Source: Anaerococcus sp. Marseille-Q5996
GTDB lineage: Bacteria; Bacillota; Clostridia; Tissierellales; Peptoniphilaceae
Direction of reading: 5' to 3'
DNA: 64,000 nucleotides
Assembly: GCF_946893725.1 (NCBI RefSeq)
Contig: NZ_CAMPPE010000001.1
Location: 186,001 to 250,000, forward strand
Shown here piece after piece: positions 15,672-23,639 of this stretch. The position numbers were made by a program, and so were the translations under genes. The notes under the pieces are model-generated. The model was given only the letters and a program-made list of their open reading frames with translations. It did no database searches and was not told the DNA's origin. Positions within the stretch are counted from its first letter, which is position 1, and each line of letters starts with the position of its first letter.

Positions 15672-18188
15672 ATGGATATCAAAAAATACTCACAAGCATC
15701 GGTAGATGTTATTAATCATGCAAATAAAATTGCAATTAGATATAGCAATTCGGAAGTGTCTGACTTGCACTTACTATATGCAATTTTACAAAATCCCGAT
15801 AATCAGATTGCAGAGTTTTTAAAAGAATCAGCTGTTAATTTCCAACAACTTAAGGATGACGTGGAAAATGCTCTGACAAAACTTAGAAGTGCAAAGGGTG
15901 TGACAAATCTTTATGTCAGCAGGTCTTATCAAAAAGTTTTGTTGGTTGCTGAAGAACTTACAAGAAATCTCTTTGAAGAAAAAATTAGACTAGAACATAT
16001 TTTTCTTGCCTTATTAAAGGAGACTGAAACTACAAGTTCCAAAATTTTGGGCCAGCATAAGCTTGATTATGATGGATTTATGCAATTCGTTTCAAGAAAG
16101 TTTAATGAGCAATTTTTAAATGGTATTGCTAAAGAAACCATTGCAAATCTTGAAAAATATGGTCGAAACCTAACCAAGGAAGCTATTGAAGGAAAACTTG
16201 ACCCCGTTATTGGCAGGGATGAGGAAACTCGTAGCGCTATCCGTGTTTTATCCCGTAGGATAAAAAACAATCCGATTTTAATTGGTGAGGCGGGTGTTGG
16301 TAAAACTGCTATTGTTGAAGGGATTGTCCAAAGGATTGTCCAAGGGGATGTGCCAGACAATCTAAAAAATAGGATGGTTTTTTCACTTGATATGACATCT
16401 CTGGTAGCAGGAACAAAATATAGGGGAGATTTTGAGGATAGATTAAAGAAAATCCTTGAGGTTGTAAGGGATTCTGAAGGCAAGATTATTTTATTTATCG
16501 ATGAAATCCACAATATTATTGGTGCAGGAAATACATCAGGAACTATGGATACTGCAAATATCCTAAAACCAATGCTTGCCCGTGGTGAAATCTTAACAAT
16601 AGGTGCAACAACTATCGAAGAATACAAAAAGTATATCGAACAAGATGGAGCCCTTGATCGTAGATTCCAAAAAATAATGGTAAATGAACCAAGTGTTGAA
16701 ACATCAATCGCCATCCTGAGAGGTGTGAAAGGCAAATATGAAAAACATCATATGGTACAAATTTCGGATACTGCTTTAGTAGAAGCTGTTAAGCTTTCAA
16801 AAAGATTTTTATCCTACAGAAAACTACCAGATGTTGCCATAGATGTCATCGATGAGGCTGCGGCATTAACGCGAATGACCAAAGATCAAAAACCTGTCGA
16901 AATAGACAACTTAAACCGCGCGCTAATCCAAGCTGAAATGGAAAAAATAGCCTTAAAGGATGAAACAGACAATATATCACGTGATAGGATTGTCGAAAAA
17001 GAAACAGAGATAGAAAATTTAAAAAACTCTTTGGAAGAAAAAACCAAGTTATACGAGCTTGAAAAAGAAAGACAAGAGCAAATTTTACTTTACGAAAAAG
17101 AACTTGATGACATTTTAGCTGACATAGAAATAGCTCAAAATGAACACAACATTAGCGAATTAGACGAAAAAATCAAGTCTAAAAAATTAGTAGAAGCAAA
17201 ACTTGATAAATTAAATGACCAAGAAGCCTACTATCCACTTTCAACTAGTGTGACAAGTTCTGAAGTAAAAGAGATTATTTCTAAATTATCAGGCATGCCA
17301 AAGGTAAAACTACAACTAAATAAAATCGAAAACCTCGATCAAATCAGGTCAAATATGAAAGAAGAATTTGTAGGCAATGACAAAATGATTGATAAAATCA
17401 TAGATACCTACCTAATTTCTGAGGGTGGTTTGTTTGAAAGAAGCAAACCAATCGGTAGTTTTTTAATTGGCGGCAAGGGCGCTGGCAAAAGTTATATAGC
17501 AGAGCTAACTTCAAAATATCTTTTTGATGGGGAAACTAGTCTTTTAAGATTTGATATGGGTGAATTTACAGAAAAATCAGCCGTTACAAAACTTATTGGA
17601 GCTCCTCCAGGATATGTTGGCTATGAAGTAGGGGGCATCCTAACTGAGGCTATAAGGACAAAACCATATAGCGTAGTTGTATTTAACAATATCGAGAAGG
17701 CAAATGTTGAAATTCAAAGTCTAGTCTCACAAATTTTAAGTGCAGGCAAGTTAAAAGACAACAAGGGCCGCAATATAGATTTGAAAAATACAATGATTTT
17801 CTTAACCACTTCGGAAAATATTAATAATAATTTAGAAAATGATATATCGGGTATAACTAATGTAGTGGATTATGTTTTTTATCTAAACGAACTAGAAAAA
17901 GACTCAATTGATAAACTAATAAAAATTAATTTAAGCAAATTAGAAAATGATTTGGAAGATAATCGTATCAGCCTTAGCTATGATGATCAGTTTATAAAAA
18001 ACCTATCAGCATTTGCAATTGAATATGATATGGACATCAGAGAAATCAAGAAATTTATCGAGCAAGAAGTCTATCTAGAAATTTCTAAAAAAATATTAGA
18101 AACCAAGTCAGATAATCCATTGCAAATAACATTAGCATTTGAAGATGAAAAACTAAATCTGACAGCACAAGAAAAAAATTGGAGGTAA
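15672..18188 (+). CDS. ClpB-like AAA+ ATPase with degenerate second ATPase domain
   Basis: 838 residues. Order: Clp N-domain repeats (about 1-145), AAA1 (about 175-400), a coiled-coil middle domain of about 100 residues (about 420-522) resembling ClpB more than ClpC, and AAA2 (about 560-835). AAA1 is intact: Walker A GEAGVGKT (205-212), pore loop KYRG (249-252), Walker B ILFIDE (273-278), Arg fingers 330-331. AAA2 keeps Walker A GGKGAGKS (600-607) and pore GYVG (647-650), but the Walker B acidic pair is Asn-Asn (FNNIEKAN, 672-673), the sensor-1 Asn position reads TTSEN, and the usual PEFxNRxD arginine-finger segment is absent. AAA2 may bind but probably cannot hydrolyse ATP. RBS GGAGG at 15656-15660. 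It ends 2 bases before the TIGR00300-like pair, suggesting a dedicated partner or chaperone. It is probably not the cell's main ClpB. Confidence 0.85.
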
Positions 18189-18190
18189 AA

Positions 18191-19363
18191 ATGGCTTTTC
18201 AAGTACCAGAATATGTTTGTCCAAACTTTTCAGATGAAAAGTTTAAAAACGCACAAGATGTAAAACTAGGTAAAGTTGAAAAAGATGGTGTAGCACCAGA
18301 TAACTTTTATCTAACAACTTACATGCCAACTTACTACAAAAAAGATGGCGAATGGATCCTACCAGAACACACATCACTTAACTGTGTAGCAGTTGCTGAG
18401 GGTGATGACATAGTTATCAAAGAAATCAGAGACCTAAAATCAGGTGATGAAGTAGTTTTAAGAGGCGATGATGATGCTGAAAGCGGAATTTATGTAAACG
18501 CAGAAGGATTCCCAGAAGAAGTTTACTCAAGACCTGGAAAATCAGTAGAAACATCATTCTCAAATGACTATGACAAATTATTTGAATTAATGGAACATGA
18601 ACGTGATAGCGAAGATGGATACATAGTTTGGGTTCTAGGACCAAGTGTAGTATTCGACTATGATACAAGAAATGCTTTAAACAAACTAGCAGAAAATGGT
18701 TACATTAACTCATTACTAGCAGGTAACGCTATGTGTACTCACGACCTAGAAGGTGGATTCTTACAAACAGCATTAGGTCAAAATATTTACACACAAGTTA
18801 ACCAACCAATGGGTCACTACAACCACTTAGACTTATTAAACGAAGTAAGAGATGCTGGTTCTATCAAAGAATTTATTGCTGGTGGTAATGTAAAAGATGG
18901 TATCATCAAAACACTTTCTGATATGGATGTTCCATTTGTACTTTCAGGATCAATCAGAGATGACGGTCCACTTCCAGAAGTACACGGAGATACAGATGAT
19001 GCACTAAATGCAACAAAAGAAGAACTTGATAAAGCAACAATGGTTATTTGTATAGCAACAATGCTTCACAGCTTATCAGTTGCAAACCTAGCATCAAGCT
19101 ACAAAAAAAGAACAGATGGAACAGTTTCACCAGTTTATATGTACTCAATCGACGTTACAGAAAACGTAGTACACAAAGTAGGTGCAGCAAGAGAATACAT
19201 GGGATTTGTACCAATGGTAACAAACGTACAAGACTTTGTAGTTAACTGTGAAAAAGCATTAGTTTCTCCAGCTCAAGGAGTACTTTCTGAAGATATGGAA
19301 ATTCCAGAAACTGAACACGTACAAATAACAGGCCACAAAGAACAAAGCAAGGAGGAATTATAA
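18191..19363 (+). CDS. TIGR00300/AgrE-C-terminal-like (ornithine cyclodeaminase-like) protein, subunit A
   Basis: 390 residues matching the C-terminal nucleotide-binding region of the TIGR00300 family (archaeal ornithine cyclodeaminase, C-terminal part of cyanobacterial AgrE/ArgZ). Family motifs seen: NFYLTTYMPTY (38-48), WVLGPSVV (147-154), LLAGNAMCTHDLE (175-187, His184), GHYNHL (208-213, His209 and His212), SGSIRDDGPLPEV (252-264) and ATMLHSLSVANL (289-300, His293). It lacks the roughly 100-residue N-terminal LOR/SDH domain of the archaeal enzymes and has an acidic C-terminal tail. Start 18191 is set by GGAGG at 18181-18185; a TTG further upstream is inside that RBS. Codon use suggests high expression. 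The neighbouring lar and nickel genes make a nickel-pincer cofactor a plausible partner. The exact reaction is unknown. Confidence 0.8.
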   Translation: MAFQVPEYVCPNFSDEKFKNAQDVKLGKVEKDGVAPDNFYLTTYMPTYYKKDGEWILPEHTSLNCVAVAEGDDIVIKEIRDLKSGDEVVLRGDDDAESGIYVNAEGFPEEVYSRPGKSVETSFSNDYDKLFELMEHERDSEDGYIVWVLGPSVVFDYDTRNALNKLAENGYINSLLAGNAMCTHDLEGGFLQTALGQNIYTQVNQPMGHYNHLDLLNEVRDAGSIKEFIAGGNVKDGIIKTLSDMDVPFVLSGSIRDDGPLPEVHGDTDDALNATKEELDKATMVICIATMLHSLSVANLASSYKKRTDGTVSPVYMYSIDVTENVVHKVGAAREYMGFVPMVTNVQDFVVNCEKALVSPAQGVLSEDMEIPETEHVQITGHKEQSKEEL

Positions 19364-19364
19364 G

Positions 19365-20459
19365 ATGAAATTTGAAATGCCAAAATATCATCATCCTGAT
19401 TTCGATCAAGATTTCTTAAAAAATGCACCAAATGTTAAACTTGAAGAAGTAACAGAAGAAGGCATCAGCCCACGTAACTACCACGCATTATCAGTATTCC
19501 CAGAATACTTCAAAGTTAATGACAAATGGGTACTTGCTACAGAATCAAGAATGGATACTGTTTGTGTAGTAAATGATACACCAGGTGAAGAAAGTGTCGA
19601 CATCGTTGAATTTAGAAACCTAAAAGTAGGCGATAAAGTAGCAATCGGACGTACAGAAGATGCTTCAGAAGGTATCTATGTATGGACTCAAGGATTCTTA
19701 GAAGAAGGATCAGAAAAAGATACATTTGCTTTCCGTTCAGGTCGTTCAAGAGAAACAGCTTTCTCAATGGACTATGACAACCTATACGAAGTACTTAAAC
19801 ACGAAAAAGAAAACAACGGCTATGTAACAATAGTAGTTGGTTCTGCAATTGCCCTAGATAGAGACGCTAGGCTTGCTTTACAAAGACTAGTTGAAAATGG
19901 ATATATCAACGCAATCTTCTGTGGTACTGAAACAGCAGCATTTGACCTTGAACGTGGATTATATGGTACATCTTGGGGACAAGAACACTTTGAAAAAGAA
20001 CAAAACTCTACAAGAAACCTATACGAAACTATCAACTTAGCTCGTAAATACGGTTCAACAAAAGCATTAGTAGAATCTGGACAAGTAAAAGATGGTTTCA
20101 TCAAAGCATGTGTTGAAAATGACGTAGATTTTGTAATCGCTGGTACAATCCGTGATAGATTTGGTCTTCCAGAAACAATCAACAATGTTTATGAAGCCCA
20201 AGATGCTATGAGAGCTCACTCAAGAAAAACTTCTACAATCATCATGCTTTCAGCAATCTTATTTACAATTGCAACAGGTAATATGACTCCATCATACAAC
20301 GAATTTGATGGCGAAGTAAGACCAGTTTACATGTACACAGTAGATATCCAAGAATTCGCTGTAAACAAACTTTCTGACAGGGGTACAGTAACAGCTGTTA
20401 CTATGGTAACAAATACACAAGACTTCATCAGAAACGTAGATAGAGCTTTAAATAACTAA
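19365..20459 (+). CDS. TIGR00300/AgrE-C-terminal-like protein, divergent subunit B
   Basis: 364 residues, a clear paralogue of the upstream gene along its whole length (shared GYIN, GSIKEF/GSTKAL, VKDGxIK, PVYMY, MVTNxQDF). The positions that hold conserved His in subunit A are changed: FDLE (Phe193) replaces HDLE, the GHxxH segment reads STRNLYE (215-221), and MLHS becomes AILFT (297-301). SIRDDGPLP becomes TIRDRFGLP (261-269). It may therefore be a structural or regulatory subunit, or act on another substrate. RBS AAGGAGG lies at the end of gene A and the start is one base after its stop, so the two are coupled and probably form a hetero-oligomer. Confidence 0.8.
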   Translation: MKFEMPKYHHPDFDQDFLKNAPNVKLEEVTEEGISPRNYHALSVFPEYFKVNDKWVLATESRMDTVCVVNDTPGEESVDIVEFRNLKVGDKVAIGRTEDASEGIYVWTQGFLEEGSEKDTFAFRSGRSRETAFSMDYDNLYEVLKHEKENNGYVTIVVGSAIALDRDARLALQRLVENGYINAIFCGTETAAFDLERGLYGTSWGQEHFEKEQNSTRNLYETINLARKYGSTKALVESGQVKDGFIKACVENDVDFVIAGTIRDRFGLPETINNVYEAQDAMRAHSRKTSTIIMLSAILFTIATGNMTPSYNEFDGEVRPVYMYTVDIQEFAVNKLSDRGTVTAVTMVTNTQDFIRNVDRALNN

Positions 20460-20759: not shown

Positions 20760-21635
20760 ATGGAAAAAACAGTAACAAGTATTAATGCAGAAAAAAAGGA
20801 AAAGTTAAATAGCATCATAAAAGAATTGCTAGATGAAAAATTTGTTTTAGCATTTTCTGGTGGTGTAGATAGTACACTTATCTTAAAACTAGCTTCAGAA
20901 TTAAGAGAAAATCGTGATGACGTTGTTGCAATGACTTTTGTAACAGAGTTTTCGCCTAAAGATGAGCTAGATGAATGTATAAGACTTGCAAAAGAAATGG
21001 ATGTAGAACTTCACGTTGCAAATGTAAGTATCATGGACAATGAAAAACTACTTAACAACGTAAACTACAGATGCTACCACTGTAAAGGTGGACTTTTTGA
21101 AAACTGCTTTAACTTAAAAGATGAACTTGGTTATGGATTTGTAGTTGATGGTACAAACCTAGATGACTACCAAGTATTTAGACCAGGTATCAAAGCACTA
21201 AAAGACTTGGGCGCAAGATCTCCGCTTTATGAAGCTGGACTAAGCAAGGCAGAAGTACGCGCTTATTCAAAAGAACTAGGTGTAGAAACTCACAAAAAAC
21301 CTTCAAAACCATGTATGGCAACAAGATTCCCATATAATACAAGAATTGATATAGATAAATTCCCAATGATTGAAGAAGCTGAAAACTACTTAGAAAGCTT
21401 AGGTTTTGCGGTAAATAGAGTTAGAATTTACGGAGATAACACTAGAATTGAAGTAGAAAAAGAAAAACTAGGCCAAGTTTTTGAACACGCTGAAGAAATT
21501 GTAAAGAAATTCAAAGACTTAGGATTTAAATACGTAAATATCGACTTAGAAGGCTACAGATCTGGTTCTATGGATGAAGTTGTAGATGACAATTTAAAAA
21601 CAGAAGTAAATCCATGGTTAGCTAATGAACAATAA
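20760..21635 (+). CDS. larE: Nickel-pincer cofactor biosynthesis sulfur transferase LarE
   Basis: 291 residues of the PP-loop ATP pyrophosphatase fold. The PP-loop is SGGVDST (33-39); DGTNLDD (130-136) and PCMATRFPY (Cys185) are LarE signatures. In characterised LarE the equivalent Cys donates its sulfur to the pyridinium carboxylate intermediate made by LarB, leaving dehydroalanine. This protein also has CYHC (105-108), so it may belong to LarE variants with extra cysteines that bind an Fe-S cluster and work catalytically; this is inference. RBS GAAAGGA. larB starts within its last codons (11-base overlap). Confidence 0.93.
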   Translation: MEKTVTSINAEKKEKLNSIIKELLDEKFVLAFSGGVDSTLILKLASELRENRDDVVAMTFVTEFSPKDELDECIRLAKEMDVELHVANVSIMDNEKLLNNVNYRCYHCKGGLFENCFNLKDELGYGFVVDGTNLDDYQVFRPGIKALKDLGARSPLYEAGLSKAEVRAYSKELGVETHKKPSKPCMATRFPYNTRIDIDKFPMIEEAENYLESLGFAVNRVRIYGDNTRIEVEKEKLGQVFEHAEEIVKKFKDLGFKYVNIDLEGYRSGSMDEVVDDNLKTEVNPWLANEQ

Positions 21636-22371
21636 AGAATTTTTAGAAAAAATAAAAAATAATGAAATATCTATAAATGAAGGTCTAGATTACCTAAAAG
21701 AATTTAACTATAAGGACTTAGACTTTGCAAAATTAGATTTCCAAAGAAAAGAACGCCGCGGATTTGGTGAGACAATTTTTTGTGAGGGCAAGGAGGACTT
21801 TGCCCTTGCAGAAATTTATAAATCTTTTAGCGAGCGTAAGGAATCAGTAATTGGCACAAGAGCTACTCCTAGCCAATATGAAAGAGTCCTTGAACTTGTA
21901 CCAGAAGCAAAATATGATCCAACTGGAAGGATTATTTCTCTTGTTTATGAACAGAGTCCCAAAATAGGAAATATTGCCATTTGTACAGGTGGTACTGCAG
22001 ATTTAAAGGTGGCTGAAGAAGCTAGGATAACTGCAGAATTTTTTGGTGCAAATGTTAGTAAATTTTATGATGTTGGAGTTTCAGGACTTCACAGACTAAC
22101 TTCAAAAATTGATGAAATTTCAAAGGCCAATGTAATTATTGCAATTGCAGGTATGGAAGGTGCTCTTCCAACAGTTATTGGCGGTTTGGTAAATAAACCA
22201 ATTATTGCTGTGCCAACATCTATCGGCTATGGAGCAAATTTTAAGGGTCTTTCAGCCCTACTTACCATGCTAAATACCTGTGCTGAGGGTGTCAATGTTG
22301 TAAATATAGACAATGGATATAGTGCATCCTACAATGCTTGTCAGATTAATAAATTGATTGAGGAGAAGTAA
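21625..22371 (+). CDS. larB: Nickel-pincer cofactor biosynthesis carboxylase LarB
   Basis: 248 residues. The C-terminal half (about 115-245) resembles PurE (NCAIR mutase) with CTGGTADLKVAEEA and AGMEGALPTVIGGLVNKPIIAVPTS; the N-terminus carries the LarB-specific GFGETIFCEGK. LarB carboxylates nicotinic acid adenine dinucleotide at C5 and cleaves it to the dicarboxylated mononucleotide, the first step toward the nickel-pincer nucleotide. Overlap with larE and zero-spacing to larC indicate one operon. The absence of other pur genes nearby rules out a purine role. Confidence 0.95.
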   Translation: MNNKEFLEKIKNNEISINEGLDYLKEFNYKDLDFAKLDFQRKERRGFGETIFCEGKEDFALAEIYKSFSERKESVIGTRATPSQYERVLELVPEAKYDPTGRIISLVYEQSPKIGNIAICTGGTADLKVAEEARITAEFFGANVSKFYDVGVSGLHRLTSKIDEISKANVIIAIAGMEGALPTVIGGLVNKPIIAVPTSIGYGANFKGLSALLTMLNTCAEGVNVVNIDNGYSASYNACQINKLIEEK

Positions 22372-23639
22372 ATGGATTTATATTTTGAAATGAACTCTGG
22401 AATTGCTGGGGATATGACAATTGCAGCACTTCTAGATCTTGGAGCTAGTAAGGAAAAGCTAGTTAAGGCTATCGAATCAATGGGCATAGATGGCTATGAA
22501 TTGGTTTTTGATAGAAAAATTAAAAACAATATAGATGCAAATAACTTTGATGTTATTTTATCAAATCATGACCACGACCACCATCATGATCATGATCACG
22601 ATCATAACCATGACCACACTCATGAACACGTGGATGAAAATGGCAATACTTACACACATTCCCATTCTGATGACCACCATGGCCATAGACATTTAAAAGA
22701 AATTACAGACTTAATCAACAAAGCAGATATTTCTCAAAGAGCGAAAAAAGATGCCCTTGGTATCTTTGAAATCATTGCTGATGCAGAAGCAAAAGCTCAT
22801 GGGATTGAAAAATCAGCAGTTCACTTCCATGAAGTAGGAGCGGTTGATTCAATAATTGATATTATAGGCACAGCTGTCCTAATCGATGATTTGGGAGTGG
22901 AAAATATTTATTTTTCAGATCTTAGCGAGGGTTATGGCTACCAATATTCATCTCACGGGCAAATGCCAATACCAGTGCCAGCTGTCATAAATATCCTTGC
23001 AGGTTCTAATATAAATCTAAAACTTTTGGATGAAGAAGGCGAACACGTAACTCCAACTGGTGCTGCTATTGTAAGATATTATGATAATGGCGAAAAAATC
23101 AATAGTTTTAAAGTAAAAAATGTAGGACTTGGAGCTGGCAACAAAGACTTTGCAAAATACACAAATATCTTGCGAGTAATGGAAATTGAAAGCAGTAAAA
23201 AAAAACACTAGAAATACTGGAAACTAATATAGACGATAGTACAGGAGAGATTTTGGGTTTTATAGTAGATGAATGTATGAAATACGCCCTAGACGTCTTT
23301 TATACACCAATATTTATGAAAAAAAATCGCCCAGCCTATAAGCTTTCAATTATTTGCGATTTGGAAAATGAGAAAGCCATTGAAGATTTAATTTTCAAAC
23401 ATAGCACAAGCATTGGCATAAGAAAAATTCCAATTGAAAGGGACATCCTAGATCGCAAAAAAGAATCACTCACTTATGAGGGGAGTGAGTACGATTATAA
23501 AATTGTTAGTCACAATGGCGAAGAATATGTGTATCCGGAATTTGAATCAGCTAAGGACCTTGCAATTAAAAATGACATCGGCATAAAAACTGCCTTTGAT
23601 TTGTTAAAAAAATTATATGTTAAGAAGGAAGATAAATGA
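22372..23639 (+). CDS. larC: Nickel-pincer cofactor nickel-insertion protein LarC (made by -1 frameshift)
   Basis: LarC inserts nickel into the pincer nucleotide. It is encoded in two frames. Frame 0 (22372-23211, LarC1, 279 aa) has the N-terminal EMNSGIAGDMTIAALLDLGA, a His/Asp-rich metal-binding segment (66-107) and FHEVGAVDSIIDIIG. It ends at TAG after nine A residues (23197-23205). Slipping back one base on A AAA AAA continues into ACA CTA GAA and gives LEILETNIDDSTGE, then LDVFYTPIFMKKNRP, the conserved LarC2 sequence, to the stop at 23637-23639. The fusion is about 422 aa, the full LarC length. A programmed frameshift at the same junction is known for Lactobacillus plantarum larC. The ATP-binding protein gene overlaps its end by 4 bases. 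Confidence 0.9.
23197..23211 (+). other. Predicted -1 ribosomal frameshift site in larC
   Basis: Nine consecutive A (23197-23205) read as AAA AAA AAA, followed by CAC TAG in frame 0. The heptamer A AAA AAA at 23199-23205 lets two Lys-tRNAs slip back one base, entering the frame that encodes LarC2. I see no obvious strong downstream stem-loop. A sequencing error in the homopolymer is the main alternative. Confidence 0.75.

Follow-up and report, generated by a model that had tools for sequence, protein, structure and literature searches.

ClpB is the textbook general disaggregase, and its M-domain is the contact for DnaK. ClpX has one ring and many clients, and Clp unfoldases often recognize their clients by tails. 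A tandem AAA+ assembly with one inactive ring is known from Pex1/Pex6, a eukaryotic type II AAA in which D1 is the inactive ring, while CbbX belongs to another AAA+ clade and has a single ring. According to passages of one study, CbbX, the red-type Rubisco activase, threads an 11-12 residue C-terminal extension of RbcL into its pore, and activation is lost when two or four residues of this extension are deleted (PMC5437159). Excerpts of a second study describe the activation of ALAS by mitochondrial ClpX through cofactor binding (PMC7077987), and those of a third describe the nickel-pincer nucleotide as labile, since it can lose its nickel and break down while on the protein (PMC11796402). A literature search, most subscription papers lying outside its scope, found no paper on ClpB together with ornithine cyclodeaminase or on the nickel-pincer nucleotide together with ornithine.

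The window, i.e., the whole stretch of DNA analyzed, comprises 64,000 nucleotides of contig NZ_CAMPPE010000001.1 (positions 186,001 to 250,000) of Anaerococcus sp. Marseille-Q5996. The genome of this host (G000) is 1.65 Mb in size and 99.75% complete. A ClpB paralogue, termed here ClpBx, is followed after a 5-base gap by two enzyme subunits and four lar genes (window coordinates):

15672-18188, + strand: ClpBx, ClpB paralogue of 838 aa with N-domain, AAA1, M-domain, and AAA2 (open reading frame, domain profiles, alignment, structure match)
18194-19363, + strand: ODC1, putative nickel-pincer-nucleotide-dependent ornithine cyclodeaminase, catalytic-like subunit, 389 aa (NCBIfam, solved relatives, conserved residues)
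19365-20459, + strand: ODC2, partner subunit, without H183, D257, and G258 of ODC1 and without a tail (NCBIfam, residue comparison)
20760-21635, + strand: larE, sulfur transferase of nickel-pincer nucleotide synthesis (NCBIfam)
21625-22371, + strand: larB (profile match)
22372-23211, + strand: larC1 (profile match)
23253-23639, + strand: larC2 (sequence match)

The full domain order of ClpB (N, AAA1, M, AAA2) was found in ClpBx, which matched solved ClpB 4d2q along the whole chain (E 2.6e-167). Its top NCBIfam match was TIGR03346 (ClpB), at 773 bits. The closest ClpBx proteins were those of Anaerococcus sp. mt242 (97% identical) and A. octavius (89%). The preliminary description, which dealt with residues 601-763 of ClpBx, had also proposed a search for a separate canonical clpB. 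Such a gene is present in G000 (G000:C2:337557-340073); it encodes a protein of 861 aa with DE and NRIDD, and ClpC is encoded in the same genome.

The motifs of ClpBx were read from its alignment with canonical ClpB, ClpC, and orthologues:

16284-16307, + strand: AAA1 Walker A, GEAGVGKT (residues 205-212), intact (alignment)
16500-16505, + strand: AAA1 Walker B, D277-E278, intact (alignment)
16947-17261, + strand: M-domain, residues 426-530 (alignment)
17469-17492, + strand: AAA2 Walker A, GGKGAGKS (residues 600-607), consensus kept (alignment)
17598-17621, + strand: AAA2 pore loop, GAPPGYVG (residues 643-650), the best conserved stretch of AAA2 (alignment and conservation)
17685-17690, + strand: AAA2 Walker B site, Asn672-Asn673 in place of Asp-Glu (alignment)
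17811-17876, + strand: sensor-1 region degenerate, arginine-finger segment deleted (alignment)

AAA1 further contains sensor-1 GATT and the Arg pair 330-331. In AAA2, which is one residue shorter just upstream of Walker A, the Walker B region reads FNNIEKAN in place of FDEIEKAH, sensor-1 reads TTSEN in place of TSNIG with the sensor-1 Asn absent, and a stretch of about 27 residues including FKPEFLNRIDD is missing. Pfam AAA_2 covers profile positions 1-132 of 166 only, and the AlphaFold2 model retains the AAA2 fold (mean pLDDT 82.5). Everything that the preliminary description had reported of the two ATPase domains is confirmed by the alignment: Asn-Asn at the AAA2 Walker B (672-673), an altered sensor-1, the loss of the arginine-finger segment, the retention of Walker A and of the GYVG pore loop, and an intact AAA1.

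Judged by its sequence, ClpBx is derived from Hsp100/ClpB and departs from ClpB membership in three tested features: its score is below the equivalog cut-off, it does not have two catalytically complete rings, and it does not group with canonical ClpB in the tree. Domain order, the AAA1 motifs, the AAA2 pore loop, and an identity of about 40% with the canonical ClpBs of its kin are common to ClpBx and ClpB/Hsp104 (TIGR03346; 4d2q, 1qvr). Unlike them, ClpBx has an AAA2 without catalytic residues and a sub-cut-off score (773 vs 1232 bits), is tied to one enzyme, coexists with a canonical ClpB, and has lost the M-domain in two members. ClpBx also differs from the protease unfoldases ClpC, ClpA, and ClpX in having no ClpP-binding loop in its last AAA domain, where the segment from sensor-1 to the arginine finger is deleted.

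The length of the M-domain is near normal in most ClpBx members. The two ODC-linked ClpBs in which it is missing are those of G095 (P_G095; L076:6319-8721) and Bacillota Bin_4 (L158); these losses were apparently independent of each other.

Eighteen orthologues of ClpBx were found among 130 genomes of the family Peptoniphilaceae, one of them (in G095) first detected by AAA1 alone, and two more, in Falseniella ignava (Lactobacillales) and Pyramidobacter (Synergistota), among the 80 of 527 relatives taken in. The catalytic Glu and the arginine finger of AAA2 were absent in 20/20. The catalytic position is occupied by Asn in 15 and by Asp in 3 of the family orthologues, by His in Falseniella, and by Ser in Pyramidobacter. 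It is extremely improbable that AAA2 still hydrolyses ATP using substitute residues. The Walker A consensus in most members and the Asp at the catalytic position in three would fit such activity, but AAA2 has lost the catalytic Glu, the sensor-1 Asn, and the arginine finger together, and in the other 17 orthologues the catalytic position holds Asn, Ser, or His. In G018 and G019 even the AAA2 Walker A is destroyed; thus, not every member needs its AAA2 to bind nucleotide.

A pseudogene or a sequencing error was ruled out, since the orthologues at 97% and 89% identity have the same NN and the same deletion and selection is purifying. By the Nei-Gojobori method, with several dS values near saturation, dN/dS was 0.05-0.19 for the AAA2 of ClpBx (7 pairs), 0.02-0.05 for its AAA1 (6 computable pairs), and 0.03-0.06 for the AAA2 of canonical ClpB (3 pairs). 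Invariant columns in the 18 orthologues numbered 25 in AAA2, nine of them at 643-655 (the pore loop and its flank), and 98/266 in AAA1. Mere decay of AAA2 under relaxed selection, with no role left, would be in line with the AAA2 identity among eight genomes (0.41 in ClpBx vs 0.69 in their canonical ClpBs), with the loss of Walker A in G018 and G019, and with a dN/dS above that of AAA1. It is nevertheless highly unlikely, given the range of dN/dS, the kept pore loop, and the retention of the open reading frame and the AAA2 domain in 20/20 orthologues. The AAA2 of ClpBx is under constraint, though not for catalysis.

The ClpBx-ODC cassette of Pyramidobacter (L148) and Falseniella (L139) nests inside the Peptoniphilaceae clade, which suggests that it probably reached Synergistota and Lactobacillales via horizontal transfer.

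Both ODC1 and ODC2 are named putative nickel-pincer-nucleotide-dependent ornithine cyclodeaminases by NCBIfam. With NF052526 (ODC_var, cut-off 440), ODC2 scores above the cut-off (464.5) and ODC1 just under it (436.4). The solved relatives are LOR/SDH (3c2q) and cyanobacterial ArgZ and AgrE. Residues H183, H208, H211, D257, G258, P259, and H292 are present in 39/39 ODC1 rows; H183, D257, and G258 do not appear among the four commonest residues at their sites in the 38 ODC2 rows. ODC1 is therefore read as the catalytic-like subunit and ODC2 as a degenerate partner. Compared with ornithine cyclodeaminases of the ArgZ/AgrE and LOR/SDH types (6juy, 6lrg, 3c2q), ODC1 has the same fold and conserved residues; the difference lies in the two-protein enzyme, the degenerate partner, and the C-terminal tail. 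The residues lost by ODC2 (19365-20459) are the ones that ODC1 has in common with the single-chain relatives.

Most of the relatives' loci add genes for ornithine carbamoyltransferase, a sodium:amino-acid symporter, a CD0519/CD1768 membrane protein, carbamate kinase, and a divergent AraC-type regulator, and arginine deiminase was found in two of the loci. By its gene content, the locus is an arginine/ornithine fermentation operon. A scan for promoters and terminators was uninformative (32 and 4 matches, respectively, vs 40.7 and 3.9 in shuffled sequence).

The nickel-pincer cofactor of ODC is an assignment by NCBI; the solved relative AgrE was crystallized with ornithine and NAD+. G000 has lar genes and no LarA, so ODC is the likely user of the nickel-pincer nucleotide there. 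LarB was found in 53/130 family genomes, in 22/22 of those with ClpBx, and in 31/39 of those with the ODC pair, being absent from the remaining 8/39. Loci L104-L108 (genus g4 of the family) have ODC pairs without LarB, which may mean another source of the cofactor or a cofactor-free variant.

In the window, larC consists of two open reading frames, larC1 and larC2, that differ in frame (23190-23260). Just ahead of the larC1 stop, nine consecutive A precede a C (heptamer AAAAAAC), which makes a candidate site of programmed -1 frameshifting; larC is a single longer open reading frame in G069 and G106. Programmed -1 frameshifting reportedly occurs in larC of lactobacilli.

The ODC pair was found in 39/130 family genomes, with one weaker match in four more. 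ClpBx, counting four divergent Anaerococcus copies with intact AAA2, was found in 22/130; all 22 also have the ODC pair, in the same locus every time. Over all 29 loci with ClpBx, it is encoded with its enzyme pair in each, usually inside the catabolic operon. The ODC pair occurs, and presumably works, without ClpBx in 17/39 family genomes; hence, ClpBx is not strictly required for such enzymes. Canonical ClpB coexists in ClpBx genomes; it was not found in the Peptostreptococcaceae MAG G251.

The catalytic-like subunit ends in an extension:

19262-19360, + strand: C-terminal tail of ODC1, residues 357-389, 33 aa, predicted disordered (length comparison, structure prediction)

The tail starts after Leu356 and has a pLDDT of 31-40. 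It was compared in 61 ODC-pair loci: 39 of the family, 3 of family f15, and 19 from the 80 of 527 relatives, the rest of the 80 being repeat family or f15 loci, loci with no ODC1-ODC2 pair, or loci with truncated ODC1 (L184, L189). Alignment A1, the query for the scan of relatives, includes one ODC2 row (L084:5289-6380) in error. The tail is 31-38 aa long in 29/29 loci with ClpBx and 1-18 aa long in 31/32 loci without it, the exception being G025 (32 aa). Absence of ClpBx was checked genome-wide for the 17 family genomes and for 10/15 other negatives, the latter by taking the single match per genome as canonical ClpB without a tree; for the five Clostridium loci L165, L167, L170, L171, and L173, it refers to the locus. 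G025 is next of kin to the four Anaerococcus genomes with intact AAA2, and the stretch matching their tail motif differs in it; its tail is thus read as a relic. A motif [DE][YHF][VI] lies about midway in many tails, including those of distant lineages (MEYVE, HEYVE); exceptions are TANVE in G011, MDYAK in G069, and NEYCE in G187. ODC2 served as an internal control: no tail was seen in the ODC2 rows inspected. The tail sits on the subunit keeping the conserved residues.

On the ODC1-core tree, from which the tail columns were excluded, 8 changes of state are counted for ClpBx and 7 for the tail. Six independent contrasts were drawn on starred branches: on average, 5.7 of them show the tail following ClpBx, and none shows it opposed; with the tail cut-off of 25 aa set after the lengths had been seen, the test is borderline (median p 0.031, range 0.031-0.0625). 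Among ten neighbour classes, scored as present within the sequence stretches around each locus, ClpBx tracks the tail with phi 0.97, the next best being AGCS with 0.61. Other candidate partners of the tail, namely memF7 (the CD0519/CD1768 membrane protein), the AGCS symporter, OTC, carbamate kinase, and the AraC-type regulator, were rejected because they track it far less. Group-specific residues of the N-domain were considered as the tail-binding site and also rejected: only four positions passed (67, 84, 95, 98), three of them in every subgroup, which is too few.

An out-of-sample search for ODC1 in 391 class and 249 order genomes gave two new pairs, and tail and ClpBx agreed in 2/2. G187 has a tail of 40 aa (NEYCE) and a second ClpB beside its ODC pair; G286 (L247) has a tail of 11 aa and an operon complete except for ClpBx, with no match to ClpBx at E 1e-100 in the genome. 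G230 is the same contig as L152 and was left out as a new test. In the single-type ODC matches retrieved from the class and order searches, Leu356 is followed by 1-4 residues, and the retrieved stretches contain no ClpB; for one of them, G601, no ODC reading frame was recovered. The G286 operon, without ClpBx, a long tail, or a strong ClpB match, is a natural control.

The proposal of the preliminary description that the machine serves the enzyme pair downstream is strongly supported by comparison, through linkage, co-occurrence, and the co-varying tail of ODC1. That ClpBx is instead an auxiliary general disaggregase riding with the operon, the tail having another role (ODC1-ODC2 assembly or contact with a membrane transporter), is very unlikely: homology to ClpB over the whole chain and the near-normal length of the M-domain in most members agree with it, but the same genomes, G251 apart, already have canonical ClpB, two members lack the M-domain, and the tail tracks ClpBx far better than it does other neighbours.

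The same comparative facts (tail lengths, contrasts, and neighbour tracking) would also fit an off-switch, in which the tail lets ClpBx sequester the enzyme, disassemble it, or pass it on for turnover, for instance when arginine is exhausted; the common recognition of tails by Clp unfoldases agrees with this. We regard such a role as unlikely, since ClpBx is without the region where ClpC has its ClpP-binding loop and its gene usually lies within the catabolic operon, which favours a helper.

The order of events was read from a ClpB tree built on the N-domain and AAA1, with AAA2 excluded. The 23 canonical ClpBs form one clade (98/95), and the 30 ODC-linked ClpBs fall outside it in one group with modest support (68/87). 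The proteins with dead AAA2 form one clade (99/100), for which one change is needed. A first, quick tree had included the long-branched row X_G251, which was left out of the later one. AAA2 with DE and NRLD was found in family f15, G187, the Peptostreptococcaceae MAG, Bacillota Bin_4, and the four Anaerococcus copies. These relatives have the same client, ODC1 with the tail, in the same locus; therefore, ClpBx joined ODC first, and AAA2 catalysis was lost later, once. The dead ring is thereby ruled out as the cause of specialization, and the preliminary description, which took it as a sign of a specialized role, is not upheld on this point, the locus and tail being found with intact AAA2 too. 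It had also set against its own reading any homologues in this position with DE and the arginine finger; they do exist in the sister lineages, and none is among the orthologues.

A divergent copy with intact AAA2 in G017 (L042:1226-3712) has DV rather than DE at the AAA1 Walker B and one TAA inside the match, which may be a draft-assembly error or indicate a decaying copy.

We consider that ClpBx is probably a client-dedicated AAA+ remodelase of ODC1/ODC2, gripping the ODC1 tail and powered by AAA1, with AAA2 as a passive ring. This remodelase reading draws on the linkage to a single partner, the co-varying tail, the intact AAA1, and an AAA2 with fold and pore loop but no catalytic residues. 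The tail of ODC1 would be captured by the ClpBx hexamer, the power stroke would come from AAA1, and AAA2 would form the passive lower ring, still lining the pore. The pull would be partial and non-proteolytic, opening ODC1, so that the client would be remodelled and then released; the deletion of the ClpP-loop region argues against delivery to ClpP. The purpose may be activation, by seating the labile nickel-pincer nucleotide, or reactivation, by removing a damaged cofactor or an inhibitor, as suggested by the lability of this nucleotide and by the case of ClpX and ALAS.

Among known systems, Pex1/Pex6 likewise forms a hexamer in which one ring is active and the other inactive, as would ClpBx; however, ClpBx is a bacterial Hsp100, and its dead ring is the second. 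For the pull itself, the parallel would be the threading of the RbcL C-terminus by red-type Rubisco activase. As far as the passages of PMC5437159 describe it, CbbX is also an AAA+ helper encoded in the operon of its enzyme, with a C-terminal extension on the enzyme and a conserved pore loop, whereas ClpBx is a double-ring Hsp100, its client is not Rubisco, and threading would be by analogy. Mitochondrial ClpX, in the excerpts of PMC7077987, is a Clp unfoldase activating a metabolic enzyme by promoting cofactor binding, which for ClpBx is a proposal; unlike ClpX, ClpBx has one linked client and one dead ring.

In its apparent mode of action, ClpBx resembles a client-dedicated AAA+ activase, one derived from ClpB. 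More tentatively, an Hsp100 may have become an activase dedicated to a nickel-pincer-nucleotide enzyme, pulling a purpose-made tail to install or renew a fragile cofactor; as little force would be needed, its second ring could have been retired to a passive pore-lined clamp, just as the enzyme retired one of its subunits.

A ClpB paralogue linked to a single enzyme whose tail co-varies with it is a natural system for asking about the role of each ring, and the sister lineages with live and dead AAA2, having homologous clients, provide a natural comparison. The prediction is that certain nickel-pincer-nucleotide enzymes depend on a helper driven by ATP, and the presence or absence of the tail would give a sequence rule for which of them do.
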